A stretch of DNA of 53,580 nt. It comes from an uncultured Holophagaceae bacterium (GTDB lineage: Bacteria > Acidobacteriota > Holophagae > Holophagales > Holophagaceae). Positions 2,591-22,847 of the stretch are shown one piece after another. Both the position numbers and the translations under genes were made by a program. The notes beneath the pieces are model-generated. The model ran no database searches. It was not told the DNA's origin and saw only the letters and a program-made list of their open reading frames with translations. Location: NCBI GenBank assembly GCA_903857495.1, contig CAIOFF010000062.1:1-53580 (forward strand). The letters are read 5' to 3'. Position 1 is the first letter of the stretch, and each line of letters starts with the position of its first letter.

Positions 2591-3715
2591 ATGCTTCATG
2601 TCGTCGTGCTTGGTGCGGGCCGCGTGGGTGGTGCCATGGCCAAGGATCTCTCCCCGGAGTTCAAGGTCACGGTGGCGGACCGCTCGGTGGCGGCCCTGGC
2701 GCGCATGCAGCAGGCGGGGCTCGCCATCCGCACCGCGGACCTCTCCCGTCCCGAGGCCGTCAAGGCCGCCGTGGCCGATGCGGACCTGGTGGTGGGCGCC
2801 GTGCCCGGCTTCCTGGGCTTCGCCACAGCCAAGGCCGTGCTGGAGGCGGGCAAGCCCCTGGTGGACATCTCCTTCTTCGACGAGGACTGCTTCGAGCTGG
2901 ATGCGCTGGCCAAGGCCCAGGACCTCACGGCCATCGTGGACTGCGGCATCGCCCCGGGCTGCCACAACATCATCCTGGGCGACCTCTCCCGCCAGTGGGA
3001 CCGCGTCACCTCCTTCGAGTGCCTGGTGGGCGGCCTGCCGGTGATCCGCACCTGGCCCTACGAGTACAAGGCCGGGTTCAGCCCTATCGACGTCATCGAG
3101 GAATACACCCGGCCCTCCCGCTACGTGAAGGACGGGCGCATCGTGACCTTCCCCGCCCTGTCCGAGCCTGAGCTGCTGGAGTTCGACGGCCTGGGCACCC
3201 TGGAGTCCTTCAACACGGACGGTCTGCGCAGCATCCTCAAGAGCTTCCCCCAGGTGCCGGACATGAAGGAGAAGACCCTCCGCTACCCCGGCCACATCGA
3301 GAAGATGCGCATGCTGCGGGAGTCCGGCTTCTTCAACAAGGAGAAGATCCAGGTCGGCGGCGTCGCGGTGAGCCCCCTGGACCTGACCACGGCCCTGCTC
3401 TTCCCCCTCTGGTTCATGGAGGAGGGCGACGAAGACTTCACGGTCATGCGCGTCACAGTGGCAGGCGAGAAGGCCGGCCAGCCCGTGCGCAAGCAGTTCA
3501 ACCTGCTCGACCGCTACGACCGCGCCACCAAGACCACGTCCATGGCCCGCACCACGGGCTACTCCTGCACCGCCGCCGTGCGCCTCCTGGCCAGCGGCCG
3601 CTTCTCCCGCAAGGGCATCAACCCGCCCGAGTATCTGGGCCTCGAACCCGGTGCCTGGGACTTCATCCGCGCCGACCTCGCCAAGCACGGCGTCATCTTC
3701 ACCGAGACCGACTGA
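2591..3715 (+). CDS. Saccharopine dehydrogenase-like NAD(P)-dependent oxidoreductase
   Basis: 374 aa. The N-terminus has a Rossmann dinucleotide-binding motif, VVLGAGRVGG (GxGxxG at residues 8-13), followed by a saccharopine dehydrogenase NADP domain and a C-terminal catalytic domain. The segment DCGIAPGCHNIILG is typical of the lysine-metabolism branch (Lys9-like or lysine-ketoglutarate reductase type). The substrate cannot be fixed from sequence: saccharopine, carboxynorspermidine or a related amino-acid imine are all possible. A strong ribosome-binding site (AGGAGG, about 6 bases upstream) supports the start. It is monocistronic, with repeats on its 3' side. Confidence 0.82.
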   Translation: MLHVVVLGAGRVGGAMAKDLSPEFKVTVADRSVAALARMQQAGLAIRTADLSRPEAVKAAVADADLVVGAVPGFLGFATAKAVLEAGKPLVDISFFDEDCFELDALAKAQDLTAIVDCGIAPGCHNIILGDLSRQWDRVTSFECLVGGLPVIRTWPYEYKAGFSPIDVIEEYTRPSRYVKDGRIVTFPALSEPELLEFDGLGTLESFNTDGLRSILKSFPQVPDMKEKTLRYPGHIEKMRMLRESGFFNKEKIQVGGVAVSPLDLTTALLFPLWFMEEGDEDFTVMRVTVAGEKAGQPVRKQFNLLDRYDRATKTTSMARTTGYSCTAAVRLLASGRFSRKGINPPEYLGLEPGAWDFIRADLAKHGVIFTETD

Positions 3716-3732
3716 GCCGGAAGTAGGAAGGT

Positions 3733-3993
3733 CCACCACAAAGACCGCAAAGACCACGAAGGAAGACCCGTGATCCCGGCTCCGTGGTGAAGTCATCTGT
3801 TACTGAATAGGTGAACCACAAAGAACACAAAGAGCACAAAGAAGGACGGCCTGATATCGCCCCTGCTTTTCTTTGTGTCCTTTGTGTCCTTTGTGGTTAA
3901 TCCATTTTTTCTAAAACAACATGTACCACGAAGACCACAAAGGAAGACAAGCTCGGCTCTCTTCTTCGTGGTCCTTCTGTCTTCGTGGTTAAG
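3733..3993. repeat. CACAAAGA/CACGAAGA intergenic repeat cluster with two hairpin units
   Basis: The whole 305-bp gap between the dehydrogenase and rapZ is built from imperfect 9-bp words of the ACCACAAAG/ACCACGAAG type. Direct copies run at 3733-3762, 3815-3847 and 3921-3946, and inverted copies (CTTTGTGTCC, CTTCGTGGT) at 3868-3899 and 3961-3993. Pairing 3815-3847 with 3868-3899, and 3921-3946 with 3961-3993, would give two long imperfect hairpins. No gene is visible. The hairpins could serve as the 3' ends of both convergent genes. Confidence 0.75.
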
Positions 3994-4020
3994 TCCTTGC
4001 TCGGCCTGATGCTCGCGGGA

Positions 4021-4878
4021 TCAGCCGTCGAGCTCGCGGTGCCTCACACTGAGGGCGGCGACGTCGTTGCCGAGGCGGCTGGCCAGCATCTCGACCAGGG
4101 CCACGGAGCGGTGCTGGCCACCGGTGCAGCCGATGGCGAGGGTGTGGTAGGCGCGGCCCTCCTGCTGGACCAGCGGCAGAGACCAGCGCAGCCAGCTCTC
4201 GACCCGCTCCAGGAACTCGCGGTAGTCGTTGGACTCGAGCAGGTACTCCTGCACGGGCCAGTCCCGGCCTGTGAGCGGCTTGAGGGCTTCCACATAGAAG
4301 GGATTCGGGAGGAACCGGGCATCGAGGACCACGTCCGCATCGGCTGGGATGCCCCGCTTGAACCCGAAGCTGAGCAGCCGCACCGCCGTGTGGCGCGTGG
4401 GCAGCTGCGGCACCAGCGCCGCAATCCGCAGCCGCATGTCTGAGAGGTTCAGGTGGCTGGTGTCCAGGATGGTGGTGGCCAGGGCCCGGGTGGGTGCGAG
4501 CATCTCGCGCTCCCGCTTGAGGCTCTCGGCGGGGGTACCCAGGTTCAGGTGGTGCGGGCGCCGGGTCTCCGAGAAGCGGCGTACCAGCACCGCATCCTCG
4601 GCTTCCACGAAGATCACCTGCACCGAGCTGCCGCTGAGGCGGAGGCGCTCAAGCAGCGACGGAAACTCCTGGGCGAACTCCACCTGCCGACAGTCCATGC
4701 CCACCACCAGGCGGTTCATGCCCGGCTGCAGGTGCTTCTCCAGCTCGAGCAGGGCCAGCAGGGGCTCCAGCAGGCGCGGCGAGACGTTATCCAGAGCCGT
4801 GCAGCCCGTATCCTCCAGAGCGCCCAACACGGAGTGCCGACCGGCTCCCGATAGGCCTGTGACGATGATCAGTTCCAT
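4021..4878 (-). CDS. rapZ: RapZ/YvcJ family nucleotide-binding protein
   Basis: 285 aa, usual length. The N-terminal kinase-like domain starts with a P-loop and the C-terminal half carries the conserved GCTGGQHRSVAL motif (about residues 253-264), diagnostic of the RapZ family. In enterobacteria RapZ binds GlmZ/GlmY RNAs and controls glucosamine-6-phosphate synthesis; in other phyla its role is less clear. The P-loop here reads GLSGAGRHSV: the expected lysine and serine of GxSGxGKS are replaced by arginine and histidine, so ATP/GTP binding or hydrolysis may be altered. It lies downstream of secA on the same strand, separated by a strong hairpin. Confidence 0.9.
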   Translation of the reverse strand: MELIIVTGLSGAGRHSVLGALEDTGCTALDNVSPRLLEPLLALLELEKHLQPGMNRLVVGMDCRQVEFAQEFPSLLERLRLSGSSVQVIFVEAEDAVLVRRFSETRRPHHLNLGTPAESLKREREMLAPTRALATTILDTSHLNLSDMRLRIAALVPQLPTRHTAVRLLSFGFKRGIPADADVVLDARFLPNPFYVEALKPLTGRDWPVQEYLLESNDYREFLERVESWLRWSLPLVQQEGRAYHTLAIGCTGGQHRSVALVEMLASRLGNDVAALSVRHRELDG

Positions 4879-4969: not shown

Positions 4970-7588
<2,619 letters not shown>

Positions 7589-7727
7589 GCTGTCGTCCAG
7601 TCGCGTAAACCACCGATTGTAGCGCGAGACCGCCTCTTTTCCCAGCCTCAGGCCTGTCGGGCAAGCCTTCCTGGTTGCCGAATTTACCTGCCCAGGACAC
7701 ACTGATCGTTTGGAATCTGGAGGAACC

Positions 7728-8147
7728 ATGGCCATCGAACGCACCTTCGCCATCGTCAAGCCCGACGCCGTCAAGGACGGCCACATCGGCGAGATCGTCA
7801 CCGCCATCGAGCAGAGCGGCCTGAAGGTCGTGGGCCTGAAGCTGACCCGCCTGACCCCCGCCCTCTGCCAGGGCTTCTACCACGAGCACGTGGGCAAGGG
7901 CTTCTATGCGGACCTGGAGGCCTTCATGTGCGAGGGCCCCGTCACCCTCATGGTGCTGGAAGGCGAGAACGCCATCCTCCGCTGGCGCGAGCTCATGGGC
8001 GCCACCAACCCCGCCCAGGCCGCCGCGGGCACCCTCCGGCAGCGCTTTGGCGCCAGCATCGGCCGCAACGCCACCCACGGCAGCGACAAGCCCGAGAGCG
8101 CCAGGTTCGAGGTCAGCTACTTCTTCAGCGCCTTCGAGCAGTTCTGA
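7728..8147 (+). CDS. ndk: Nucleoside diphosphate kinase
   Basis: 139 aa from the ATG at 7728, preceded by GGAGG; an upstream in-frame start at 7710 would put the ribosome-binding site inside the gene. KPDAV is at 11-15 and the phosphohistidine motif RNATHGSD gives H117 as the catalytic residue. The enzyme equilibrates nucleoside di- and triphosphates. Its promoter must lie in the 139-bp gap shared with secA. It is followed 49 bp later by the response regulator gene. Confidence 0.97.
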   Translation: MAIERTFAIVKPDAVKDGHIGEIVTAIEQSGLKVVGLKLTRLTPALCQGFYHEHVGKGFYADLEAFMCEGPVTLMVLEGENAILRWRELMGATNPAQAAAGTLRQRFGASIGRNATHGSDKPESARFEVSYFFSAFEQF

Positions 8148-8196
8148 GACCGCCGCCAGGAGAGCGGAACCCCCACCTTCCTGGCAGACTAGGGGC

Positions 8197-8907
8197 ATGA
8201 CCGACCCTTCTACTCCGATCCAGGTGGCCGTCTGCGAGGACAACGATGCCCTGCGGGACATCCTGGTCTCCGTGCTGCCCCGCTTCGGCCTCCGGGTCTT
8301 CGGCGTGGGCTCCTCGGAGGCCCTGGACCGGCTCCTGCAGGAGCGGCCCGTGGACATCGTGGTCCTGGACATCGGCCTGCCCGGCGAGGACGGCCTGTCC
8401 GCCGCGGCCCGCCTGCGCCGCGAGCGGCCTCACCTGGGCATCGTCATGCTGACGGCCCGGGCCCTGCTGGACGACCGCATCCGCGGCATGCAGCAGGGGG
8501 CGGACCTCTACTTCGTCAAGCCCGTGGACATGGCCGAGCTGGCCGCCGCCCTCACCAGCCTCCACCGGCGCCTGGCCCAGGCCAAGCCCCCGCTGCGGCA
8601 GCCCTGGAAGCTGCTCCGGGGCCGGGGTGTGCTGGAGGCCCCGGACGGCACCGCCATCGACCTCACCGAGAACGAGCGCCTCATCCTGGCATGCCTGCTG
8701 GCGGATCCCGGCACCTCCGTGGACCGGGAGGAGCTCATCCGGGCCCTCCACTGGGAGGGCAGCGAGAAGGTCTACATGCGCCTGGCCAGCGCCGTCAGCC
8801 GCCTGCGAGCCAAGGTCGCCGGAGCCGCGCCCGAGCACGCCTTCCCGCTCCGGACCCTCCACGGCACCGGCTATGCCTTCCGGTCGGACGAGGACCCGCA
8901 GCCATGA
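8197..8907 (+). CDS. OmpR/PhoB-type response regulator
   Basis: 236 aa. The receiver domain (about 8-120) has the acidic pair E14/D15, the phosphoacceptor D58 (VVLDIGLP), the switch threonine near 86 and K108. A winged-helix DNA-binding domain fills about 135-230 (TENERLILACL, then VSRLRAKV). Its stop overlaps the ATG of the kinase gene by 4 bases (ATGA), so regulator and sensor are a coupled pair. Target genes are unknown. The purine-rich AGGGG lies very close to the start, so initiation may depend on ndk read-through. Confidence 0.92.
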   Translation: MTDPSTPIQVAVCEDNDALRDILVSVLPRFGLRVFGVGSSEALDRLLQERPVDIVVLDIGLPGEDGLSAAARLRRERPHLGIVMLTARALLDDRIRGMQQGADLYFVKPVDMAELAAALTSLHRRLAQAKPPLRQPWKLLRGRGVLEAPDGTAIDLTENERLILACLLADPGTSVDREELIRALHWEGSEKVYMRLASAVSRLRAKVAGAAPEHAFPLRTLHGTGYAFRSDEDPQP

Positions 8908-10922
8908 ACCGCCTGGTCCGCAGCCTGGGACTTCTGCTGCTGGGCCTGAGCCTCTGGGCCGCCCCGCCCGTGGAGCTGGGCCAAGATGACCGCCTCCCGC
9001 TCGCCGGTCACATGGAGATCCTCACCGGTGCCCCGGCGGCCACCCTCGAGCAGGCCCTGCTGGGCGCCGCCGAAGGCCGCTTCGTGCCGCTGGCCGGGAA
9101 CGTCGCCAAGGGCTACGGCCAGGATCCCATGTGGGTCCGTTTCACCCTGCGCCTGTCCGGGCTGCAGCGCCCGATCTCGTGGCTGGAGGTGAAGCCCGCC
9201 TACCTCCGCGAGGTCACCCTCTTCACGCCCCGCGCCGACGGCAGCTTCGAGGCCGCCACCGCCGGCGCTGGGCTGCCCTTCGCGGTCCGCCAGATCCCCT
9301 ACCTGGCGCCCGTCTTCCGCCTGGAGGCCCCGGCCCAGCCTGGCACCGAGGCCACCTACTACCTGCGGGCCGAGACCCCAGGTGCCCGGATCCTGCGGCC
9401 GGTCCTCTGGGACCCGGCCACCTTCCAGCAGGCCGTGAGCACAGAGGCCCTGCTCTACGGCCTCTTCTACGGGGTCGGCCTCATCATCCTGGTCACCAAC
9501 CTGATCTACCTGATCAAGCTGCGGGAGCCCATCCACTTCTACTACGCGGCCTACCTGGCCGCCGTGCTCATGATGTTCGCCACCCTCAACGGCCACGCGG
9601 AGCGCTACCTGTTCCCCGGGTCCGACCTGTCCATCCGCTGGGGTGTGCCCCTCTCCGTGGTGGTGCAGCCCTGGCTGGCGGTCTACATCTTCTCCATCCT
9701 GACCGACTTCGGCACGGCCTTCCCCCGCCTGGACCGGGCCTACCGGACCACGGGCTTGGCCCTGACCGCCTTCTTCCTCCTGGCCGCCGCCCTGGGCGGC
9801 TACTACCGAGTGGCCCCGCTGACCCAGGTCGTCTTCCTGCCGATCATCGCCATCAATCTGATCGGGGCCCTGGTCATGGCCCTGCGGGGCAACCGGACCG
9901 CCACCTTCTACCTGCTGGCCTTTTCGCCGCAGCTGCTTGGGGGCTTCTTCCGGGTCGCCAGCAACCTCTCCCTGCACAACGCCGACTTCCTGGCCGAATA
10001 CGGCATGCACCTCGGCGCCATGGTCCACCTGACCCTCATGAGCCTGCCCCTGGCCGATCGCATGGGCCGCATCAAGGAAGAGCGGGACGCCGCCCAGCGG
10101 GAGACCCTGGAGACCATCGCCCGCCACCAGCTGGAGCTGGAGGGCCAGGTGGCGGCCCGCACCCAGGAGCTTCGGCAGCAGCAGGCCCGCACCGCCGAGG
10201 CCCTGGTGCGCGAGCGCGAGGTGGTGGCCGAGCAGCGCCAGTTCCTGTCCCTGGTGTCCCACGAGTTCCGCACCCCCCTGGCGGTCATGGACGGCGCCGC
10301 CCAGATGGCCCGTCTCTCCGTGGCGGCACCACCCGCTGAGCTGGTCCGCAGCACCCAGTCCATCCAGCGGGGGGTGGGCAGCCTGCTCCACCTGCTCGAT
10401 ACCTGGCTCACGACCGACCGCATCGCCTCGGGCCTGCGCGCCCTCAAGACCGAGCCCGTGGCCCTGCCCGAGCTGCTGACCGAGGTGGTGAAGCGGGCCG
10501 CCGATGCCTCCCGGCGTGACCTGCGGGCCGACCTGGACGAGCTGACCGCAACCACCCTCTGCGACCGCGACCTGCTGGGCGCGGCCCTGCTGAACCTCCT
10601 GGACAACGCCCTCAAGTACTCCCCGGCGGACAGCCCTGTGCACCTGCGGGCCCAGGTCCAGGACGGCTGGCTCCACCTGGAGGTCCAGGACCAGGGCCAG
10701 GGCATCCCCGCCGATCAGCTCCAGCACATCACCACCCGCTACTTCCGGGGCCGCAACGTGGGCCAGATCCCCGGCCTGGGCCTGGGCCTGCACCTAGTGA
10801 GCACCATCGCCGAGCTCCACGGCGGCCGCTTCGAGCTGGCCAGCGTCGAAGGCCAGGGCACCACGGCAAGGCTGGTGCTGCCGGTCGGGGCCCCCCCCCA
10901 CCCCTCTGAGCCCCAGCCTTGA
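8904..10922 (+). CDS. 7TMR-DISM sensor histidine kinase
   Basis: 672 aa. A signal peptide (1-20) is followed by a periplasmic 7TMR-DISM extracellular domain (about 35-165), seven membrane helices (about 183-385), a coiled coil (about 390-445), HisKA with SHEFRTPLAV (H453), and HATPase_c (LLDNALKYS, DQGQGIP, GLGLGLHLV). The DISM sensor is thought to bind carbohydrates or related ligands; the ligand here is unknown. It is coupled to the OmpR-type regulator. Two short copies of its 3' end recur downstream at 12216-12305 and 12796-12840. Confidence 0.93.
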   Translation: MNRLVRSLGLLLLGLSLWAAPPVELGQDDRLPLAGHMEILTGAPAATLEQALLGAAEGRFVPLAGNVAKGYGQDPMWVRFTLRLSGLQRPISWLEVKPAYLREVTLFTPRADGSFEAATAGAGLPFAVRQIPYLAPVFRLEAPAQPGTEATYYLRAETPGARILRPVLWDPATFQQAVSTEALLYGLFYGVGLIILVTNLIYLIKLREPIHFYYAAYLAAVLMMFATLNGHAERYLFPGSDLSIRWGVPLSVVVQPWLAVYIFSILTDFGTAFPRLDRAYRTTGLALTAFFLLAAALGGYYRVAPLTQVVFLPIIAINLIGALVMALRGNRTATFYLLAFSPQLLGGFFRVASNLSLHNADFLAEYGMHLGAMVHLTLMSLPLADRMGRIKEERDAAQRETLETIARHQLELEGQVAARTQELRQQQARTAEALVREREVVAEQRQFLSLVSHEFRTPLAVMDGAAQMARLSVAAPPAELVRSTQSIQRGVGSLLHLLDTWLTTDRIASGLRALKTEPVALPELLTEVVKRAADASRRDLRADLDELTATTLCDRDLLGAALLNLLDNALKYSPADSPVHLRAQVQDGWLHLEVQDQGQGIPADQLQHITTRYFRGRNVGQIPGLGLGLHLVSTIAELHGGRFELASVEGQGTTARLVLPVGAPPHPSEPQP

Positions 10923-10931
10923 TGCTGGCCC

Positions 10932-12125
10932 TCAGCGACCCACGGTGGTCGTTGGGCCTAAGGCTTCGAGGCAGTCCCAGGGAAGCACCTGGACCCCGCT
11001 GCGGACCTGCTGCTGGTCGCCACCATAGACCAGGAAGGGGTCGATGGCCTGGCCGATGGACCGGGCCTCCAGAACCTCCTTCGCAGCCAGAACCGGCTTC
11101 AGCCAGGAGCCATCCAGGGTCTGCCCTGACTTGATCTCCACGAGGCGGGTGCGGTCGGGTTCCTGCAGGACCAGATCCACCTCCAGACCAGCAACCTCCC
11201 GGTAGTGGCAGGCCGCAGCCTCCAGGCCCTGGTGGAGGTGCAGCTTCATCACCTCCGAGGCCACCCAGCTCTCGAAGATTGCACCCCGGAGAGGGTGAGT
11301 CTCCAGCTGCTGAGGGGTGCGGATGCCCAGCAGGTGGCAGACCAGGCCCGCATCGTAGAAGTGCAGCTTGGGGGTCTTCACCAGGCGCTTGCGCTGGTTG
11401 CGGTGCCAGGGCCCCAGGCGGAAGCAGAGAAAGCTGCTCTCCAGCACGGACAGCCAGGCCTTGGCCGTGGGCTGGGAGATGCCCGCATCCGCCCCAAGGC
11501 GGCTGAGGTTGAGCTCCTGCCCCGTGCTGCCAGCACAGAGCCGCAGGAAGGTGTTGAAGCTGAGCAGATCGCCCACGTTGAGCACCTGGCGGACATCGCG
11601 CTGGACATAGGTGGCCACATAGTCTGCGAGCCAGCGCTCGGGAGGAATGCCCTGGTCGTGGATGCGCGGATAGGCGCCTGCGAACAGCGTGCTGAACAGG
11701 TCCCCAGGGGCCTTCGAGAACCGCCGCAGCTCACCCAGGCTGGGCGGCAGCAGGTGGAGGATGGCCGTCCGGCCCGCCAGGGTCTGGCTGACCGCATCGG
11801 TGAGCCCGAAATGCTGGGAGCCCGTGAGCACAAAGCGGCCGGGCTCTGGGTCCGCATCCACCCGATCCTGGATGTAGCTCAGCAGGCCGGCGGCATGGTG
11901 GACCTCGTCGAGGATGGCCCCCTGGGGGAACTGCCCCAGGAATCCCCGTGGGTCCTCCCGGGCGAAGGCCCGGGTCTCCAGGGGCTCCAGGCTGATGTAG
12001 GGCTTGTCGGGAAATGCCGCCTTGCAGAGCGTCGTCTTCCCCGATTGCCTCGGCCCGGTGAGGGTCACCACGGGATAGACCCCGGCCCAGCGGAGGAGCG
12101 TGGACTGGAGGTCGCGCCGGATCAT
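10932..12125 (-). CDS. AAA ATPase with DUF4143 C-terminal domain
   Basis: 397 aa. Walker A is GPRQSGKTT (24-32) and Walker B AILDEVHH (70-77). The C-terminal DUF4143 part includes EVDLVLQ near 315-321 and LVEIKSG near 328-334, an arrangement resembling a PD-(D/E)XK nuclease fold (D317, E330, K332). Proteins of this family are widespread, variable between strains and of unproven function; defence or mobile-element roles have been suggested. It ends 9 bp from the kinase stop (convergent). A good promoter at 12132-12159 places the transcript start at or next to the ATG, and there is no Shine-Dalgarno, so the mRNA may be leaderless. Confidence 0.88.
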   Translation of the reverse strand: MIRRDLQSTLLRWAGVYPVVTLTGPRQSGKTTLCKAAFPDKPYISLEPLETRAFAREDPRGFLGQFPQGAILDEVHHAAGLLSYIQDRVDADPEPGRFVLTGSQHFGLTDAVSQTLAGRTAILHLLPPSLGELRRFSKAPGDLFSTLFAGAYPRIHDQGIPPERWLADYVATYVQRDVRQVLNVGDLLSFNTFLRLCAGSTGQELNLSRLGADAGISQPTAKAWLSVLESSFLCFRLGPWHRNQRKRLVKTPKLHFYDAGLVCHLLGIRTPQQLETHPLRGAIFESWVASEVMKLHLHQGLEAAACHYREVAGLEVDLVLQEPDRTRLVEIKSGQTLDGSWLKPVLAAKEVLEARSIGQAIDPFLVYGGDQQQVRSGVQVLPWDCLEALGPTTTVGR

Positions 12126-12131
12126 GACCCA

Positions 12132-12159
12132 AGTATAGGACGCGTCTCTACCGATTCAA
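12132..12159 (-). promoter_or_regulatory. Predicted sigma-70 promoter of the DUF4143 ATPase gene
   Basis: On the minus strand TTGAAT (12159-12154) and TATACT (12137-12132) are separated by 16 bp. The predicted transcription start falls at about 12125, the first base of the start codon. Confidence 0.55.
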
Positions 12160-12215
12160 GATTCAATTTTTATTTGGTATAAAGCCATGCAGCACAAGGA
12201 CCCGACGAGCAGGAT

Positions 12216-12305
12216 AGCGTCGAAGGCCAGGGCACCACGGCCCGGCTGGTACTGCCCTGCGGTGGTGAGTCAGGCCCCTCTGCGGTGGTGGATGCCAAGG
12301 CTTGA
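12216..12305 (+). pseudogene. Displaced fragment of histidine kinase 3' end, copy 1
   Basis: Bases 12216-12241 are identical to kinase bases 10842-10867, and similarity continues with a few changes. In frame it reads SVEGQGTTARLVLP, as at the kinase C-terminus, and then runs to a TGA at 12303-12305 with a different tail. It has no start or upstream kinase sequence, so it is a remnant rather than a gene. It lies between the ATPase and the antitoxin. Confidence 0.8.
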
Positions 12306-12343
12306 CGTGACCTAAATATAGGTCTATATTTTGACCTGTATTT
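12302..12343 (+). promoter_or_regulatory. Antitoxin promoter with overlapping operator dyad
   Basis: TTGACG (12302-12307) and TATATT (12325-12330) are 17 bp apart. An inverted repeat, AAATATAGGTC (12314-12324) and GACCTGTATTT (12333-12343), with one mismatch, covers the -10 region. This is the layout expected for autorepression by a Phd/YefM antitoxin. The -35 overlaps the stop codon of the kinase remnant. Confidence 0.65.
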
Positions 12344-12348
12344 GGCTC

Positions 12349-12606
12349 ATGGAGCTTCCTGTGCAACGTATCCACGCCCGTGCCTCTGTCAGCATCAGCG
12401 ATCTGAAGAAGAACCCTTCCAGCGTGATCGACCAAGCCTCGGGCGAAGCCGTGGCCATCCTCAACCACAACCGTCCCACCGCTTACCTGGTGCCTGCCGC
12501 CGCCTACGAAGCCATCCTGGAACGCCTCGACGATCTCGATCTGGCCAAAATTGTCCGCAAGCGCCACTCGGAGGCCACCGTGAGCGTGACCCTCGATGAG
12601 CTATAG
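12349..12606 (+). CDS. Phd/YefM-family antitoxin
   Basis: 85 aa from the ATG at 12349; the frame could open 18 bases earlier with TTG but that start would sit inside the operator. The sequence RASVSISDLKKNPSSVIDQA, then a segment with NHNRPTAYLVPAAAYE, is the typical Phd/YefM fold that binds DNA with its N-terminal half and the toxin with its C-terminal tail. It overlaps the toxin frame by 11 bases. The antitoxin looks intact although its partner is not. Confidence 0.88.
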   Translation: MELPVQRIHARASVSISDLKKNPSSVIDQASGEAVAILNHNRPTAYLVPAAAYEAILERLDDLDLAKIVRKRHSEATVSVTLDEL

Positions 12607-12736
12607 GCTCGAGTTCAAGACTTCCGCCCTGAAGGAGTGGCGCAAGCTGGACAGCGGTCTGGTGGTGATCGTGGTGGTGGCCATCGGCAAGCGGGAGCAA
12701 GGCTGGGTCTACCGAACAGCCAAGGACCGGGTCTGA
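12596..12736 (+). pseudogene. RelE/ParE-family toxin with central in-frame deletion
   Basis: The frame gives 46 aa: it starts MSYRLEFKTSALKEWRKLDS, the usual N-terminus of RelE-type toxins, and ends with VVIVVVAIGKREQGWVYRTA, the usual C-terminal strand and tail. Full-length relatives have about 85-90 residues, so roughly 40 central residues are missing, with the frame kept. The lost part includes the mid-protein strands and basic residues needed for mRNA cleavage, so it is unlikely to be an active toxin. The start overlaps the antitoxin gene, the normal order for the pair. Confidence 0.82.
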
Positions 12737-12795
12737 TTCTTGCGGAGCCCCCAAGCCCCACCCTAGGCCGACCTGACGGCGCCCTTCAAGTCGCC

Positions 12796-12840
12796 CGCTT
12801 CGAGCTGGCCCGCGTCGAAGGTCAGGGCACCACGGCCCGG
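12796..12840 (+). pseudogene. Displaced fragment of histidine kinase 3' end, copy 2
   Basis: It matches kinase bases 10827-10871 at 41 of 45 positions and encodes RFELARVEGQGTTAR, against RFELASVEGQGTTAR in the kinase. Sequence on both sides is unrelated to the kinase gene. Confidence 0.75.
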
Positions 12841-12886
12841 CCTCCGCGACAACCACCCCCAGCCATCGGGCTCAGTTATCCCCGTC

Positions 12887-12949
12887 CATCCCCTCCATCC
12901 CCGTCAAAAAAAAGCTTTTGAAACAGGGATGCAGGGGATGAAGGGGATG
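12887..12949. repeat. Dispersed repeat C, copy 1 (GGATGAAGGGGATG family)
   Basis: CATCCCCTCCATCCCCGTC, an A-run, AGCTTTT and then CAGGGATGCAGGGGATG form an inverted repeat. The reverse complement recurs at 47622-47682 and half of it at 53417-53444. No coding explanation is seen. Confidence 0.75.
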
Positions 12950-12971
12950 AAAGCAAAGGCTTCGGCCTTTT

Positions 12972-12999
12972 ATCAGCAGTTATCGGTGTTCATCGGTGG
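12972..12999. repeat. Single arm of repeat B
   Basis: These 28 bases are identical to 358-385, the right arm of the element at the left end of the window. The opposite arm is not seen here. Confidence 0.8.
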
Positions 13000-13024
13000 C
13001 TGCTTTTTCTTTTGTTTGAAGACC

Positions 13025-13306
13025 TCAGCCTGCGCTCTCTGGGCTGGTCTCAGCCACCAGCCCGCAGGTGTGGACGATGCTCAGGCGGCGATCCAGCCGG
13101 TGGGCGAAGGCCTGCAGCTCCCGCAGGGCGGTGCGGGTGGCGCGGTCCAGCTCGGGCAGGTCCACCAGCTCCAGCTGCAGGTCCCGGGGGCGACCCAGCA
13201 GCAGGGGTGCCAGGGCGTCCCGCAGCAGCGCCACCTCCGGCGGGCCCAGGGGCCCGTGGACCCAGAGGTGGATCTGGTCGGCACTCACTTCCATCTGGAA
13301 GGACAT
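13025..13306 (-). CDS. Small STAS-like protein (anti-anti-sigma type)
   Basis: 93 aa from the ATG at 13306. The pattern of a beta strand (IHLWVHGPL), a helix, a strand (LQLELVDLPELD) and then RTALRELQAFAHRLDRRLSIV resembles a STAS domain, as in SpoIIAA-like proteins and in toluene-tolerance accessory proteins. The usual phosphorylatable serine after the aspartate is not obvious (ELDRATRTAL has threonines nearby). It lies 88 bp downstream of the giant surface-protein gene, past a hairpin. The family call is tentative; a plain hypothetical protein is the alternative. Confidence 0.5.
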   Translation of the reverse strand: MSFQMEVSADQIHLWVHGPLGPPEVALLRDALAPLLLGRPRDLQLELVDLPELDRATRTALRELQAFAHRLDRRLSIVHTCGLVAETSPESAG

Positions 13307-13337
13307 GGGCAGCCTTGGTTCACTTTCCGGGCGGAGG

Positions 13338-13363
13338 GGCTGCGCTCCGAGGGGAGCGCAGCC
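13338..13363 (-). terminator. Hairpin after the giant surface-protein gene
   Basis: GGCTGCGCTCC (13338-13348) and its exact complement (13353-13363) enclose a 4-base loop. It is just beyond the stop of the giant gene. There is no T-run, so full termination is uncertain and some read-through into the STAS-like gene is possible. Confidence 0.55.
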
Positions 13364-13394
13364 GTGGGGAAGCCTACCTTGGAATCTTTCTCGA

Positions 13395-16300
13395 CTAGAA
13401 GCTGATCTCAGCTTTGCCGTAAACGGCAGAGCCCATGACGGACTCTCCCGCGAGGGGCGTCCAGGTGCCATTGGTTACGCCGCCGAGGTAGCCAGAGCCG
13501 CCGCCGCCGCTGCAGTCAGCGCCGATGCTGCCACCGTAGTAGCCGCCGCCGCCACCGCACACGAAGAAACTGTACTGCTGGAGCCCGCCCCAGGCGCTAC
13601 CCCCATAACCACGGCCTCCGGCCCCCACGTTGAAGCCCCAGGAACTGGTTGCACCACCAGAACTCTGAGAGCCCCCGTTGGCAGGGGTGGGGTTGACGCT
13701 ATAGCTCTGATAGGAGCCTGAGCCGCCAGCTGAGGAGTTGCCACCCGAGGTGCCTCCTCCGCTGCCGCCAGGTCCTGCAGCACTGGTGCTACTGATGGAG
13801 GCATAACTGGAGGCCCAGTTCAGCCAGCCGGACACATTGCCTGCGCCACCTCCGCCGCCACCGGCGGCGATGAGCCAGGTGCCTCCCGAGTTCATGATGT
13901 GGGTGCCACCACCGCCCGAGCCGACGCCTGGGCCATAGGAGGCGGCGAGGGCATTGCAGTAGGAATCGCCGCCCCCATTGTAGCCGCCGGCGATGTAGGT
14001 GCCCGCCGTGACCCCCCGGTTACCCGCGCCGCCCACGACGATGGTGAGGACCTGGCCAGGGGTCACCGCCAGGGTGCCCCTGGCGTAGCCGCCACTGCCA
14101 CCGCCGATGTAGCCGTAGGTACCGCCCGGGCAGCCATACATGCCACCGGCGCCCCAGACCTTGACGGTCACGGAGGTGATACCCGCGGGCACGGTCCAGG
14201 TCTGAGCCCCACCGGTATAGTAGAGGGTGAGCACGTTGGTGGGTGTGAAGCTGATCTCACTGCCATAGGCCGTGCCGGCGCTGTTGGTGGCATAGGCCTT
14301 CAGGTAGTAGGTCGTGCTGGTCGTCAGGCCCGTGAGGTTGCTGGTAAAGGCCCCGGACTGCACCACGGTGTCGGTGGTGTGATTGCCATTGACCGACTCC
14401 GCGCCGCTGGTGGTGCTCCAGCACACGCCGGTGGCGGTGATGGTGGCGCCGCCGGTGGCGGTGATGCTGCCACCGCTGGTGACCGCCGTTCCGGTGAGGC
14501 CGCTATAGGCCGTGGTGGTCAGGGTCGGGACGGTGGTGGGCGTGGTGAAGCTGACTTCAGCCCCGTAGCCCGTGCTGTTGCTGTTGGTGGCGTAGGCGCG
14601 CACATAGTAAGTCGTGCCGGGCAGCAGACCTGTGAGGCTGCTGGTCCAGGTGGCGCCCACGGTGTTCGTGGTCTTGGTGGAGAGGGCCACCGTGGGTCCG
14701 CTGGTGGTACCCCAGCAGACGCCGTTGGCCGTAATGGTGCCGCCCCCGTTGGTCCCCAGGGTGCCGCCGGAGCTGGCCGTGGTGGCTGTGATGCTGCTGA
14801 CCGCCGTGGTGGCCGTGACCGTGGGCCCCACCACCAGGGTGGTGAAGCTGCTCTGGGCGCCGTAGGCCGTGCCCGCCGCGTTGGTGGCGTAGGCCCGGAT
14901 GTAGTAGAGGGTGCCCGGAGCAAGGCCCGTGAGGCTGGCCGTGAAGGCCCCGGTCTGCACCAAGGTCGCCGCCGCCGCCGTGGGCGTGGTGGGCGTGGCG
15001 GTGGTGGCATAGGCCACGCCCGCCGCCGTGATGGTGCCGATGGCCGTGCCCGAGATGGACCCGCCCGCGGTGGCGCTCACACCAGTGATGCTCGTGGCGG
15101 CGGTCGTGGTCAGCGTAGCCAGGTTGGGCAGCGTGGTGAAGGTCACCTGGTTGCCATAGACGGTGCTGACGCTGTTGGTGGCGTAGGCCCGCACGTAGTA
15201 GACGGTGTTCGCCGTCAGGCCCGTCAGGCTGCTGCTGAAGCTGCCCGTGGCCACGTTGTTGGTGGTCTTGCTGCTGGCGGTAGTGGGATTGGCCGTGGTG
15301 GCCCAGCACACACCGCTGGCCGTGATGGTGGCGCCGCCATCCGAGGTGATGCTCGCCCCGGAGCTGGCTGTGGTCTGGGCGATGGAGGAGGCTGCGGTGG
15401 TGGTGATGATGGGCGCCACCGCCGCCGTGGTGATCCGGGACCAGTAGGCGCCGGTGTTCACGAAGAGCCCGGGCGTGACATCGTTGGAAGTGGCCGTGTT
15501 CCAGACCATCATCCCGGCCACATGGGCCGAGAGCGGTGCGGGGTTGTAGGTGGCCACCAGGGCCAGCCGAGGCTGCAGAAAGCCCTTGGTGGTGCTGCTG
15601 ACTTCCAGCGCCGCGTTGGCATTGGGGGTGGTGGTGCCCACGCCCACGCCGCCGGTGCTGTAGCCCACGTCGCTGCCGGTGGTGGTCCACTGGGCCGAGG
15701 AGGCGCCCCAGCTGACGTTGGTGCCGTCCGTGGTGAGCACCTTGCCGCTGTTGGTGGCCTGGGCCGGCAGGATGGCGTTGGCCGCCCCTGCCTTGCTGTT
15801 GGCGCCGGTGCCGCCCTGGGCCAGGGGCAACACACCGCTGACCTCGGTGGCCAGGTTGATGGCGCTGCCATTGGAGGCGCCGGTGAGCTGCCCCTGGGCG
15901 TTCACGGTGACATTGGCCCGGGCATAGGTGCCGGCCGTGACGCCGGTGGTGTCCAGGGCCAGGGTGCCCGTGCCGGTGATGGTGCCGCCCGTGAGGCCCG
16001 TGCCGGCGGTGACGCTGGTCACGCCGCCCGAACCACTGGCCCCGGCGCCCAGCTGCCCGGTGGCGGTGTCGATCACCACGTTCTTGGTGGTGCCCAAGCC
16101 CGTGGCGTTGGCGATGCCACTGATGAAGGTCTTCGCCGTCAGGGCATTGCCGAGGACGGTGGTGTTGCTGCCCTGCCCGACGGCGTTGGTGCCGATGACG
16201 ATCTCGTTGGTGATGAGTGCTGAATCCGTGCCCGCAGCGGAGGCGCTGCTGCCGGCGCCGAGGTAGAGGTTGTTCGAGCCGTAGGCCAGGGGGGTGCCCG

Positions 16301-19300
16301 TGGCACCCGCCCCTTGTCCGATCGCCGTGTTGAAAATGCCGGTGTTCAGGCTGGCGAGGGCGCTTTCGCCGAGAGCCGTGTTGAGCCCGCCGACCGCCAC
16401 CGAGAACAGGGCCTTGGCGCCGACAGCGGTGTTCTGGGCGCCGGTGGTGTTCTGGGCGAGGGCCCGGAAGCCGAGGCCCAGGTTGTAGCCGCCCGTGGTG
16501 CTGAGCTGCAGGGCTCCGTAACCGAAGGCCGAGTTGAAGCCGGAGGTGTTGGCCGCCAGGGCCCCGTAGCCGAAGCCCGAGTTGTAGCCGGCCGTGGTGT
16601 TGGCCGCCAGGGCCCCGCTGCCGAAGGCCGAGCTGTAGCTGGCCGTGGTGTTGGCGGCCAGGGCCCCCTTGCCGAAGGCGGTGTTATCGGTGCCGCTGTT
16701 GCTTAGCAGGACCCCGTCGCCGCCCCTGGTGTTGGAGGTGGCAGGCCCGAAGGAGGCGACGCCGGTGGCCTTGACATTGGTCAGCTGGGAGCCGTCCACT
16801 GCGGGCAGCTTGGCATCGGCATCCAGCGCCACCACGTTGGTGGCGGAGGTGCCGAGGGTGAGGCCCAGGTTCGCGCGGGCCCCAGCCGCATCGGCAGCGC
16901 CGGTGCCGCCACGAGCCAGCGCGAGGGTGCCGCTGGTGAGGTTGGTGGCGTTGGTGGTGTCCACGTTGGCGACATTGCCCAGACCCAGGTTGATGCGGGC
17001 CTGCGAGTCCGTGGCGGCCCCGGTGCCGCCGCTGGCGAGGGGGAGGAGGCCTGCCACCTTGGTCCCGGCCAGATTCACTGCCCCCGTGGCCAGACGGAGG
17101 GCCGTGACCCCGCCATCGGCGATGTTCACATTCGGCGCACTGTAGCTGAGGCCGTCGCCGAAGCTGTAGTTGGAGGTGCCATTGAACTGCACCCACTGGG
17201 TGCTGGCCGAGAGGTAGACGTAGCCGTTGGCGGGCCCCGTGGCAAAGACGGACATGCTGTTCACGGGCTGCGTGAAGTCCCAGGCGACGCCGTTGTACTG
17301 GGCGATCTGGTTGACCTTGCCCACCCAGGCGTCCGTTGCAGACGCCCCGATGATGTAGCGGTCACCGGTGGTCGGAGTCGCTGGGGGAGTGGCCAGGATG
17401 CTGGTGACCGGGGCCTGCCAGGCCAGGCCGTTGGCGATCATGTCTACGTAGGCTTTGTTGGCGGCATCGTTAGCCTGGCTGGGCGTGGCCAGACCCGTGA
17501 TGGTGGCGGCGGCCAACCCACCCGAGGGGTTCCGCTTGACCAGCGTCGAGGCCGTGGCGACCTCCGTGGCCGCCGTGGTCAACGCCACGCTGGCAGCCAC
17601 GTTGGCGGCCGTGACGCCCCCCACGGAAGCCACCACTGTGGCCCCCTGGGTGCCCGTCACATCACCCAGCAGGCTACCGGTGAAGCCGGCGGCCGAGCCG
17701 CTGACATTGCCCGTCACATTGCCCGTCAGGGTTCCCGTCACATTGCCCGTGAGGGGCCCGGTGAAGCCGGTGGCCGATACGGGTCCCGTGAAGGCCGCCC
17801 CGGTCAGGGCCGCCTTGCTGTTGAAGGTGAGCCAGTCTGTGTCGGAGAGGTAGCCCGGCTGCGTCCCGCTGGCCGCGGCCATGCTGATGATGGGCGTGCT
17901 GCTGCCGGAGGCGACGGCGATGGGAGCCGTGCCGCTGATGCTGGTGACCGTGCCGCCGCCCTTGGCGCTCAAGGCGTTGAAGTCCTCTTTGGCCAGGTAG
18001 CCGTCATGGGCCCCATCGGCCTTGGTGATGCGAATGACGGGCGAGCTGGCGCCGTTCGTGACGTCCACGCTCAGGGGCGTGCCCGCGGCGGCGCCCACGC
18101 TGGTGACACTGCTGGTGGAGCTGTGGCCGGGCGTGACCCAGCCGGTGCCGCTGTAGATTTTCAGGTCCTTGTCGTGGGTGTCGTACACCATCAGCCCCTC
18201 GACCGCGCCGGTGATGCTCCCGCTGGTCATGTCCCTGCGGGGCGGCAGGAAGCCCTTGCTGGTGCTGGTGAGGTCCAGCAGCGCGCTGCCGGCCGGGCTG
18301 GCGGTGCCGATGCCCACCGAGCCGGTGCCGCTGGGAGCGAGGAGGACGGACTGGTCGCTGCCGCCCGCTGCCAAGGTGAGCGCGCCGGTGCCCGTGATTG
18401 AGCCCGTGGTCGTGCCGGTGCCGCCGTTGGCGACGGCCAAGGTTCCGCCCAGCGCGATGGTCCCGCTTGAGGTGATGGCGCTGCTGGCGGTGAGGCCGGT
18501 CGAGCCGGGATCGATGCCCACACTGGTGACGCTGCCCTTGAGGCTGAAAGCGAGGAAGTCCGTAGCGGCCAGGTAGCCGTCCGCACCGCTCGTGGCCCTG
18601 GTGATGCCAAGGGTGCCCAGGCTGGTGATCGGGCCGCCGGTGAGCGGGCCGGAGGTGGCGATGCTGGTCACGGTGCCCGTGGCGCTGCTGGTGCCGAAGG
18701 GGCCGTTCCAGTACTTCGCGTCCGGGGCACCGCTGTTGTAGTAGAAGCCGGGGGTGTCATCGGTCTGGTAGACCAGCAGGCCCGTGGCCGGGGACGTGAT
18801 GGCGAGGCGCTCTGCGATCGTCATGCGGGGCGCCAGGAAGCCCTTGCTGGTGCTGCGGAGGTCCAGCAGCGCGCTGGCGTCGGGCGTGGCGGTGCCGAGG
18901 CCGAGGGAGCCTGCGGTATAGACCACGTTGGAACCGCTCAGGCTGAACGGGGTGACCCCGGAGGTGCCGGTGGCGCCGGTGTCGCCCTTCGAGCCCTGGG
19001 GGCCCATGGGCCCGGCGGAACCGGTGGCTCCCGCCAGGCCTTGCGGACCAGTGGCGCCGGTGGCGCCCTGGGTGCCCGTGGAACCCTGGGGTCCCTGCGG
19101 TCCCTGGGGGCCGACGATGCTGACGGAGCCTGCGGGCCAGCTGCCGCCGGCCTTGGGTCCGAAGATCATGTTCGTGCTGGTGTTCACGTAGAAGTCGCCG
19201 TTCACGCCCACGCTGGCGGCGGGATCCGAGCTGCCCGACAGCGCGGCGTTGCCCGCGATGAGGATCTGCCCGGCGCTACCCGTGACGCCCTGGGCGCCCG

Positions 19301-22300
19301 CGGCACCGGCCACGCCCTGTGGGCCTTGCGGTCCGGTGGCGCCGTTGATGCCGTTGGCTCCGGCGATCCCCTGGGGACCCTGGACGCCCTCAACCCCCTG
19401 CGGGCCTTGCGGCCCGACGATGCTGACGGAGCTGCCCGACCACACGCCACCCGCCTTGGGGCCAAAGATCATGTTGTTCGAGGTGTTCACGTAGAAGTCG
19501 CCGTTCACCCCGAGGCTGTCAGCGGGAGCCCCCGTGCCCGACAGCGCTGCGTTCCCCGCGATGAGGATCTGGCCGTTGCTGCCGCTGACGCCCTGGGCGC
19601 CCTGGCTGCCGCTGGGGCCCTGGATGCCGGTGGCGCCGGTGGAACCCGTGGCGCCCGCGGACCCGATGGGGCCCACGGGTCCGGCGGGTCCGGCCACCCC
19701 GGCAGGTCCCTGCCCCCCCTGGGCGCCTGTGGCACCCAGCTCGCCCGCAGCACCGATGGGGCCCACGGGTCCCGTGGCACCGACCAGGCCCTGGGGGCCG
19801 ATGGGCCCCGTGAGGCCCTGGGGCCCCTGGAGGCCCTGGAGGCCCTGGGGTCCCTGGGGTCCGGTAAGGCTCACCGATCCCGTGGGCCAGGCGCCGGACG
19901 TCTTGGGCCCAAAGACCATGTTCGTCGTGATGTTCACGTAGAAGTCGCCGTCCACGCCGGTGCCCGCCGTGGGATTCGCGGTCCCCGAGAGGGCCGCCTT
20001 TCCAGCGATGAGGATTTGTCCGGCGCTGCCCGTCGCGCCCTCGGGACCCGCGAGCCCAGCCACGCCCTGGGGTCCTTGCGGCCCGGTTGCGCCGTTGATG
20101 CCATTCACACCGGCCAGACCCTGGGGGCCCTGGACGCCCTGAGCGCCCTGGACGCCCTGGGGCCCGACGATGCTCACGGTACCTGAAGGCCACCCGCCGC
20201 CTGCCTTGGGTCCGAACAGCATGTTGGTCGTGGTGTTCACGTAGAAGTCGCCATCCACGCCCAGGCTGGCCGCGGGGCTCGTGGTCCCCGACAGCGCCGC
20301 GCGTCCGGCCACCAGCGTCTGGCCGTCACTGCCGCGCACGCCCTGGCTGCCCTGCACGCCCTGGCTGCCCTGCACGCCCGCCGAGCCCGTGGCGCCCGCC
20401 ACGCCCTGGGGGCCTGCCGAACCCGCCGCACCCGACGCGCCCGTGGGTCCCGCCGGACCGGCTGTCCCCGTGGAGCCCTGGATGCCCTGCACACCTGCCG
20501 GACCCTGCGCGCCCTGGAGACCGCTCAGACCCATCGCCCCCGCCGGACCCTGGGGGCCCACGAGGTTCACGCCCGCTGTGGGCCACACGCCGGCGGCCTT
20601 CGGACCATAGAGGAGGCTGGTGCTGGTGTTGAGGTAGAAGTCGCCATCCACGCCCAGGCTCGCCGCTGGCACCGCCGTGCCCGAGAGCACGGCCTTGCCC
20701 GCCACCAGCGTCTGGCCCGCCGCGCCCGTGTCACCCTTCGCGCCGGTCGCGCCCGTGAGGCCGATGGGGCCCTGGGGGCCGATGGGACCTGCCACGCCGG
20801 CCACACCCGCCACACCGGCAGGGCCGGCCGGTCCGGCCACGCCCTGGGTGCCGGAGGTTCCCTGCGCACCCGCCGGACCCGCCGGACCGGTGAGACTCAC
20901 GGACCCACTGGGCCAGGCCCCCCCCGCCTTGGGTCCAAAGACCATGTTGGTGGCGGTGTTCACGTAGAAGTCGCCATCCACGCCGATGCCCGCCGTGGGA
21001 TTCACAGTGCCCGCCAGCGCCGCGCTGCCCGCGATCAGGATCTGACCGTTGGTGCCGGTGCTGCCCTGGGGGCCCGTGGGACCTGCCACACCCTGGGGTC
21101 CCTGGGGGCCCGTCGCGCCGTTCACGCCGTTGCTGCCCGCCACGCCCTGCACGCCCTGGAGGCCCTGGGCGCCCGACTGGCCTTGCGGCCCGACCATCGA
21201 CACGGAGCCCGTGGGCCACACGCCGCCCACCTTGGGCCCAAAAATCATGTTCGTGGTCGTGTTCACGAAGAAGTCGCCATCGACGCCCACCCCACTGCCG
21301 GGGTTCGTGGTGCCCGACAAGGCCGCACTGCCCGCGATCAGGATCTGACCGTTGGTGCCCGTCACGCCCTGCACGCCCTGGATGCCCTGCACGCCCTGGG
21401 GGCCGGTGCGGCCCGTCTGGCCCGTCGCGCCCTGGGAGCCCGTGGCGCCCGTGCTGCCCGTCGGTCCCGCCACGCCCTCCAGACCCTGCGGGCCTGTCGC
21501 GCCCGTGACACCGGTCGCGCCGGTGGCTCCCACGGAGCCCTGGGCGCCCTGGAGGCCCTGGGGGCCGAAGGGTCCCTGGGGACCCGTGGCGCCCGTGCTA
21601 CCCGTCGCGCCCGTGGCGCCCGCCACACCCTGGATCCCCTGCTGGCCCGCCGGGCCGATGATGTTCACGCCCGCCACCGGCCACACGCCGGCGACCTTGG
21701 GTCCATACAGCACACTGGTCGCCGTATTGAGATAGAAGTCCCCGTCCACGCCCTGCGTCGTCGGTGCCAGCACGCCACTGAGGAGCGCCTTCGCGGCGAC
21801 CAGCGTCTGGCCGTCCACACCCGCCACGCCCTGGGCACCTGCGGGGCCCGTCGCGCCCGTCGCGCCCTTCGCGCCCGCCGGTCCCATGAGGCCCATCGGT
21901 CCCACCGCACCCGTCGTTCCCGCCACGCCCTGGGGGCCTGTAGCGCCCGCCGAGCCTGTCGCGCCCGCCGGTCCGGCGGGGCCCACCGGGCCGCCGGCCG
22001 GTCCCACCAGGCTTACGCCCGCGAGCCCCGCCCAGCTGCTGGCGCTGGCCTTCGGTCCGTAGAGCACGCTCGCCACGGTGTCGAGGTAGAAGTCCCCCAC
22101 CGCGCCGCCAGCCTTGGTCGCCACTGGCGTCCCGGCTCCGTGCAGCACCGTGCGGCCATCCAGGCCGTTCAGGCCCGGCGCCCCGACTGCGCCCGCTGGA
22201 CCCGTCAGGCCCGTGGGACCCGCTGGTCCCGCGACACCCGCCGGACCCTGGGGGCCCGTGGCGCCGGTCTGCCCCGGCGTCCCCGCCACCGTCGAGGGCA

Positions 22301-22847
22301 CCCACTTCGTGCCGTTGAACACCAGCGCCTGACCCGCCGTGGGCGCGTTGGTGGTGAGGTCCAGGGGCGTCCCCTGCAGCTTCATGATCAGGATCTGATT
22401 CTGGGTCCCGGAGAGATCCCCGCTGAAGCTGCCCGTGACTTCCCAGGCGCTGCGGGCCTGGAAGGCCGGCACGATGGTCGCATCCGGCGTCAGCGCCTGC
22501 CCCGCCAGCAAGACGTGCAGCTTCAATCCCGCCTTGCCCAGCATGGCCGAGGGCAGCGCTGGCATCCCTGTGCCGCCCAGCACCACCGAGTAGAGCCCGT
22601 CGGTCACCGTCAGCGTCAGCTGGCCGGAGTTCCACTGCTCCGCCCCCGCGCTGTCCAGGATGCTGAACACGAACTGCCGCGACCCGTTGGCCACCGTGGT
22701 GCCCTCGATCAGCCGCCCCTGGTAGGCGATGGTCGGCGCTGGCGCCGCGTCCGCCGCCGCCGCCAGCGGCGGCTCCTGCGCGAACAGGGGCATCACACCG
22801 CAAGCAACAGCAGCGGCGAAAGAGAGCGTGCGGAACATCTGGAGCAT
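13395..22847 (-). CDS. Giant secreted collagen-like / tail-fibre-like mosaic surface protein
   Basis: 3150 aa. A Sec signal peptide (about 1-24) leads into a domain common at the N-terminus of bacterial tail-fibre-like proteins ([34 protein letters not shown]). About residues 190-1300 are collagen-like Gly-X-Y stretches interrupted by nine modules of the form [21 protein letters not shown]. Next come segments typical of phage tail fibres and haemagglutinin-like proteins ([20 protein letters not shown]; a [17 protein letters not shown] module near 1830-1870; GGTGA-ARINLGL motifs). A YadA-like beta-roll of NTAFGKGAL-type repeats spans about 2050-2190. Four FN3-like repeats ([10 protein letters not shown]) occupy about 2476-2870 and a glycine-rich domain the last 270 residues. 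It probably forms a long trimeric surface stalk. A Shine-Dalgarno (AGGTGA) precedes the ATG. I see no outer-membrane beta-barrel anchor or endosialidase chaperone domain. Confidence 0.85.

Follow-up and report, generated by a model that had tools for sequence, protein, structure and literature searches.

A sensor-kinase gene end copied around small accessory modules in a Holophagaceae genome

Why should the 3′ end of one sensor-kinase gene occur three times in close succession, with an ATPase gene and the remnant of a toxin–antitoxin (TA) pair lying between the copies? The locus is found in a contig of 53,580 nucleotides (CAIOFF010000062.1 of assembly GCA_903857495.1), the whole of which is referred to here as the window, from an uncultured Holophagaceae bacterium whose genome is denoted G000. 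In our reading, to which we assign a probability of roughly 0.55, the kinase locus consists of small integrated modules that are stacked at the 3′ end of a gene, lack an integrase of their own, have accreted in the manner of cis-mobilisable elements (CIMEs), and were probably mobilised in trans. The kinase, the three copies of its end and the intervening genes are arranged as follows.

8904-10922, plus strand: 7TMR-DISM sensor histidine kinase (Pfam 7TMR-DISM_7TM, 7TMR-DISMED2, HisKA and HATPase_c), the source of the duplicated 3′ end
10827-10885, plus strand: copy 1, the kinase 3′ end itself (core 10842-10867)
10932-12125, minus strand: AAA_14/DUF4143 ATPase, convergent with the kinase and assigned by Pfam and PADLOC (PDC-S01, candidate phage defence)
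12126-12206, no strand: region upstream of the ATPase gene, from blastn of the window against loci L105 and L106
about 12207-12304, plus strand: copy 2 of the kinase end, 5′-truncated and in frame, with its own stop at 12304 (core 12216-12241)
12331-12606, plus strand: Phd/YefM-type antitoxin (Pfam PhdYeFM_antitox, 9.9e-14)
12596-12736, plus strand: toxin-like remnant open reading frame of 46 residues, overlapping the antitoxin stop, recognised by its position and C-terminus and without a Pfam match
about 12796-12841, plus strand: copy 3 of the kinase end (core 12811-12836, 2 mismatches)

Three kinase ends and the genes between them

The copies share a core of 26 nucleotides, AGCGTCGAAGGCCAGGGCACCACGGC, which a pattern search of the window locates at 10842-10867 and 12216-12241 without mismatch and at 12811-12836 with two mismatches; 0 core matches are expected in the shuffled window (100 shuffles). 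With the kinase end as query against its own genome, blastn matched copy 3 at 12784-12836 (89%, E 7e-13) and copy 2 at 12206-12256 (88%, E 9e-12). Both orphan copies are 5′-truncated and remain in frame with the kinase: copy 2 is translated to its own stop as SVEGQGTTARLVLPCGGESGPSAVVDAKA, or in a longer reading as EQDSVEGQGTTARLVLPCGGESGPSAVVDAKA, likewise to the stop, and copy 3 begins RFELARVEGQGTTAR. The duplicated part of the kinase never extends beyond about the last 30 codons. The original prediction, made from the letters of this DNA, had proposed three kinase ends in the order kinase, ATPase, fragment, antitoxin/toxin remnant, fragment, and pattern search, blastn and Pfam confirm both the copies and the order.

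The only open reading frames between the copies are the ATPase, the antitoxin and the remnant, and the modules contain no integration or transfer genes. In blastn of the window against L105 and L106, the homology shared with ATPase modules elsewhere stops at 12178-12182, about 35 nt short of the copy 2 core. The position and C-terminus of the 46-residue frame suggest a RelE-like toxin with an internal deletion; tblastn found no match to it at other YefM loci, and no donor for the YefM module was found among 46 relatives.

The two orphan copies differ in their nearest kinase. Copy 3 is closest to the adjoining gene (89%, versus 78% for a kinase paralogue encoded on contig C68 of the same genome), whereas copy 2 is 92% identical to that paralogue and 88% to the adjoining kinase (4 versus 6 mismatches in 51 nt). 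A better match of the fragments to some other kinase, which the original prediction had named as evidence against itself, is thus absent for copy 3 and weakly present for copy 2. The paralogous kinases in G000 (C68), G045 and G014 end in LVLPCG, like copy 2, and the present kinase ends in LVLPVG followed by further residues. On the simplest reading of these tails, copy 2 would be the older kinase tail, retained, and the present tail would have arrived with the ATPase module; a closer match of copy 2 to the paralogue is expected under that reading as well.

No orphan kinase-end copy lies outside the kinase locus in 47 congeneric genomes. We rejected the kinase end as a widely dispersed element because the orphan copies occur at the kinase locus only, and a phage origin of the core because viral contigs gave no exact match to it.

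Variation among relatives at the kinase locus

The four closest kinase orthologues belong to metagenome-assembled genomes (MAGs) of uncultured Holophagaceae, and the layout varies among the relatives rather than being fixed in all of them. In G038 the kinase, the ATPase and copy 2 recur, followed by different cargo, an antitoxin-like gene and a PIN toxin, which starts a few bases past the LPC end of copy 2; the original prediction had proposed a search for relatives with other cargo between the fragments, and this is such a case. Its companion proposal was to look for relatives with a single kinase end and no cargo. In G014 and G045 the modules have been deleted: a single kinase end is left, together with only the C-terminal part of the ATPase, which is fused to an intergenic repeat where the two share a short CTCCA. 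The more distant G042 has no cargo, the STAS-like gene following directly after the kinase, which is only 53% identical. In G037 the contig breaks off within the kinase tail.

The far edge of the variable region is formed by two further features.

12874-12958, no strand: dispersed intergenic repeat with many copies in the genus, the end point of the G014/G045 deletion
13025-13333, minus strand: STAS-like gene with an approximate start, the far edge of the capture region (Pfam STAS_2, E 0.0077, under the curated cut-off)

The STAS-like gene is syntenic in G038, G014, G045 and G042. The interval 12874-13000 of the window holds dispersed intergenic repeats, ccatccccgtcaaaa and gatgaacaccgat with their continuations, many copies of which occur in most genomes of the genus, and the edges of deletions and insertions at the kinase locus fall within them. 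A VapBC-like pair is present in G038 as well, with the intact STAS-like gene on one side and a truncated copy of that gene's 3′ end on the other; there (L036, C42, 1700-3480) the copied end, 175 nt and about 96% like the intact one, brackets the pair together with a small zinc-binding-like gene.

Sequence identity between species changes abruptly along the locus. G000 and G038 are identical over 10818-12200, which includes the ATPase, with the upstream kinase at 90-95% and renewed divergence from 12201 onward; G000 and G037 are identical over 9851-10550, a stretch in which G000 and G038 are about 91% identical. From this pattern, tracts have been exchanged between species. Because the break at 12201 precedes copy 2, the junction between ATPase and copy 2 is older than that exchange, and since the TA cargos differ past copy 2, they are probably later insertions at copy 2 or swaps beside it. 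The mosaic is extreme over 7250-10922 of the window, where the response-regulator region matches G038 at 100% and G037 at about 90%.

A gene at 13395-22847, for a secreted-looking protein of 3150 residues with many collagen repeats and fibronectin-like domains, adjoins the kinase locus, and paralogous kinase loci likewise adjoin long repetitive genes. From this shared neighbourhood, sensor kinase and surface protein may be linked. A decayed DUF4143 fragment in G040 (L111, C128:38000-46000, at 3319-4350), made up of two pieces with 86% and 94% identity to the gene in the window, adjoins a 34%-identical kinase, a collagen-repeat gene and an extra response-regulator gene.

Copied gene ends around DUF4143 genes at other loci

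The same bracket is found at unrelated genes and at tRNAs. DNA homologues (about 80%) of the ATPase gene lie at other loci in G005 and G026, again within brackets. In G026 the terminal 81 nt of a gene for a HAD hydrolase are repeated beyond a Fic/MazE-like TA pair and a DUF4143 gene, with a second Fic/MazE-like pair past the copied HAD end, and in G005 the 3′ part of tRNA-Met (46 nt exact, from position 33) is repeated beyond an AbiEi-type antitoxin gene and a DUF4143 gene. Among more distant homologues, a DUF6982 gene of G039, ending SATQSVAYL and a stop, is followed by a convergent DUF4143 gene and then by a copy of that end; in G072 the DUF4143 gene is bracketed by the end (222 nt, 90%) of an antitoxin gene, named DUF433-like from its sequence alone. 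The ends copied at several of the coding genes stay in frame to the stop.

In G065, a single-contig genome, 50 nt of exact tRNA-Met sequence (position 32 through CCA) flank a lone DUF4143 gene on both sides, and another copy, of 33 nt, is found on the far side of a Fic gene, giving the order tRNA-Met, DUF4143, copy, Fic, copy. A tyrosine recombinase gene (PF00589, 1e-20) is located on the 5′ side of this tRNA-Met. G066 has a homologous recombinase with tRNA-Met, and a tRNA-Met copy abuts its DUF4143 gene. In the G065 locus (L313, G065:C1:3975500-3995400, at 10793-16916) the recombinase is 5′ of tRNA-Met and the copies of the 3′ part lie opposite, separating DUF4143 from Fic; the G066 locus (L312, G066:C1:4395500-4415400, at 5085-17470) follows the same plan with long cargo. 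By analogy, this layout is integron-like, with a putatively stationary recombinase. No cleanly empty tRNA-Met site was found in relatives of G065, and the site in G066 is occupied.

Two loci show duplications of other kinds. In G065 (L252, C1:22700-34200) a tRNA-Phe gene occurs twice, nearly whole, at 874-949 and 5213-5288; the copies share 87 identical nt and are separated by about 4.2 kb, and the second directly adjoins a DUF4143 gene. In G030 (L274, C30) a YefM locus has a long coding gene on one side and, on the other, 63 nt that repeat (95%) an internal segment of this gene (3393-3455 and 6531-6593).

In a uniform blastn test, a locus was scored as bracketed when a repeat of at least 44 bits was present within 3.5 kb on both sides, the kinase locus being counted once. 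Bracketing repeats were found at 11 of 57 DUF4143 loci versus 2 of 78 random intervals (p 0.002), and brackets made of a gene 3′ end, classed by inspection, at 6/57 versus 0/78 (p 0.005), values that are indicative only, as the classes were set after the data had been seen and the controls are unmatched for hypervariable sites. An earlier control gave 0/44. The bracketing repeats at loci L161, L166, L168 and L171 were discounted as dispersed intergenic repeats; L169, no more than a possible tRNA-like repeat, and L240, an unresolved coding sequence, were set aside.

The original prediction suggested that the kinase end may be a preferred capture site that had received successive insertions. The alternative cargo of G038, the single kinase ends of G014 and G045, the cargo-free G042 and the unfixed layout agree with this view, and the reading as a capture site is largely borne out. 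A site special to the kinase is not supported, other gene ends being used alike: the kinase is one of several gene ends so used in Holophagaceae, most clearly around DUF4143 genes.

The ATPase matches Pfam DUF4143 (8.5e-47) and AAA_14 (1.9e-20), both above cut-off, and PADLOC PDC-S01 (1.3e-96). By these profiles it is a clear PDC-S01 member and a candidate for phage defence. Across 34 homologues the Walker A and B residues, D317 and E330 are invariant and K332 is conserved in at least 90%, a pattern consistent with an ATPase that carries a PD-(D/E)XK-type domain. Residues 1-267 of the AlphaFold model (pLDDT, the predicted local distance difference test, 91.5) match archaeal STAND-like ATPases (2qen, Z 15.2; 2fna, Z 14.4) as well as NLR/CED-4 proteins (Z about 12-13), and the fold of this part is predicted to be STAND-like. 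For the C-terminal part, Foldseek lists Can2/Card1/Cdn1 nucleases as weak matches (template-modelling score about 0.2), which together with the D...ExK motif points to a putative nuclease; a sequence search of solved structures gave no DUF4143 homologue. PDC-S01 has been ranked the fourth commonest prokaryotic defence system in a 2026 survey, with validation pending for most such candidates (PMC12988326). In the part of the PDC-S01 literature covered, and in abstracts on COG1373, we found no report of these genes being bracketed by copied gene ends.

Proposed module accretion, its alternatives and known systems

In the accretion that we propose, each module (the DUF4143/PDC-S01 ATPase, the YefM TA pair, or the antitoxin-PIN pair of G038) would enter by recombination within about the last 30 kinase codons or in a copy of this end that was already present. 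The incoming module would bring a replacement 3′ end, with the kinase frame staying open, and the displaced end would remain as a 5′-truncated fragment on the far side of the module. The agent would likely be a tyrosine recombinase encoded elsewhere; homologous recombination between species would afterwards reshuffle the locus, and deletion would strip the modules from some lineages. We infer the recombinase, circular intermediates, the order of events and present-day mobility.

Several observations weigh against such accretion. No recombinase gene lies in or beside the kinase locus, the five tyrosine recombinases of G000 being all on other contigs, and the assemblies covering the locus are all drafts. 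At 46 of the 57 DUF4143 loci no bracket was found. The repeats range from about 45 to 222 nt, and the copies at coding genes differ by 7-14%, both unlike a clean att core of fixed length. YefM loci are bracketed in 2 of 15 cases, so that DUF4143 is not proven special, and one of the two brackets is an internal gene segment rather than a gene end, so that a non-site-specific route exists. The variable repeat lengths and that copied internal segment, together with the STAS-like end copy around another TA pair in G038 and the strong mosaicism of the locus between species, would all suit homologous or illegitimate recombination without a site-specific recombinase, in which incoming DNA carrying a kinase tail and cargo (for example by transformation) joins through short homology, or replication switches template. 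We regard this as a serious rival, though a less probable one. Exact tRNA brackets starting at the anticodon loop are a classical sign of site-specific integration, and the tRNA-Met brackets described above begin there (positions 32-33) in two genera, one with an adjoining recombinase; the copied ends that stay in frame at several coding genes argue in the same direction.

The original prediction had also allowed that the fragments are remnants of ancient tandem kinases, the rest of which was replaced by cargo. Paralogous kinases of the same family are present in the genome, copy 2 being slightly nearer to one of them, and a response-regulator copy adjoins the related kinase in G040, but only the last 30 or so codons are ever seen, no relative has full tandem kinases at this spot, and homologous ATPases are bracketed in the same manner at tRNAs and unrelated genes; this origin is disfavoured and we consider it improbable. 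A misjoining of short repeats in a draft, metagenome-derived assembly might be suspected, given that the relatives at the kinase locus are MAGs and that the contig of G037 stops in the kinase tail. Such an artefact is very improbable, as kinase, ATPase and copy 2 are arranged alike in the separate assembly G038, the copies differ in sequence, and equivalent structures occur in the single-contig G065.

With module accretion as the preferred account, the triplicated kinase end becomes a testable case of very small modules entering chromosomes without visible mobility genes. Beyond this locus, we tentatively suggest, as a generalisation that may well prove wrong, that DUF4143/PDC-S01 genes could be one-gene modules without their own integrase, which enter tRNA and protein genes at their 3′ ends, bringing a replacement end, and stack with TA modules into cassette-like arrays, using a recombinase in trans beside an anchor such as tRNA-Met. 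Should this hold generally, the limits of single defence genes would be marked precisely by copied gene 3′ ends, which would help to explain the spread of PDC-S01, and the ends of coding genes, such as that of a sensor kinase, would act as stacking sites, altering the C-terminus of the host protein.

By analogy, the bracket layout is that of the attL and attR sites of elements integrating at gene 3′ ends, with tandem accretion. CIMEs are modules without integration genes that lie between copies of a target gene end, where newcomers stack at an existing att site (PMC5704250). Like CIMEs and other elements related to ICESt1, the kinase locus has direct repeats of a 3′ end around modules that lack integration and transfer genes, with alternative, deleted and cargo-free alleles in G038, G014/G045 and G042, respectively. 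Unlike them, its units comprise one or two genes (about 0.6-3 kb), its anchor is a sensor-kinase gene, and no parental integrase-bearing element was found there; no related complete integrative and conjugative or integrative and mobilisable element was seen as a source, and the modules may never have carried integration or transfer genes. In Dehalococcoides, tandem islands at ssrA are separated by repeats of the gene 3′ end, and some have no integration module (PMC3146451). The repeats between tandem units resemble those at the kinase locus, whereas the ssrA islands involve a 20-bp transfer-messenger RNA end, a serine recombinase and dehalogenase genes, and the loci described here involve coding genes and tRNA-Met, with DUF4143 and TA genes as cargo. 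We rejected integron attC sites as an identity for the copies, which fold no better than shuffles (z -0.57, -0.36 and 0.31). Integron cassettes share with the present loci single-gene units stacked between short recombination-like repeats and, in G065, a recombinase beside the anchor, but the kinase-locus repeats reproduce the end of a host gene and are not attC-like.

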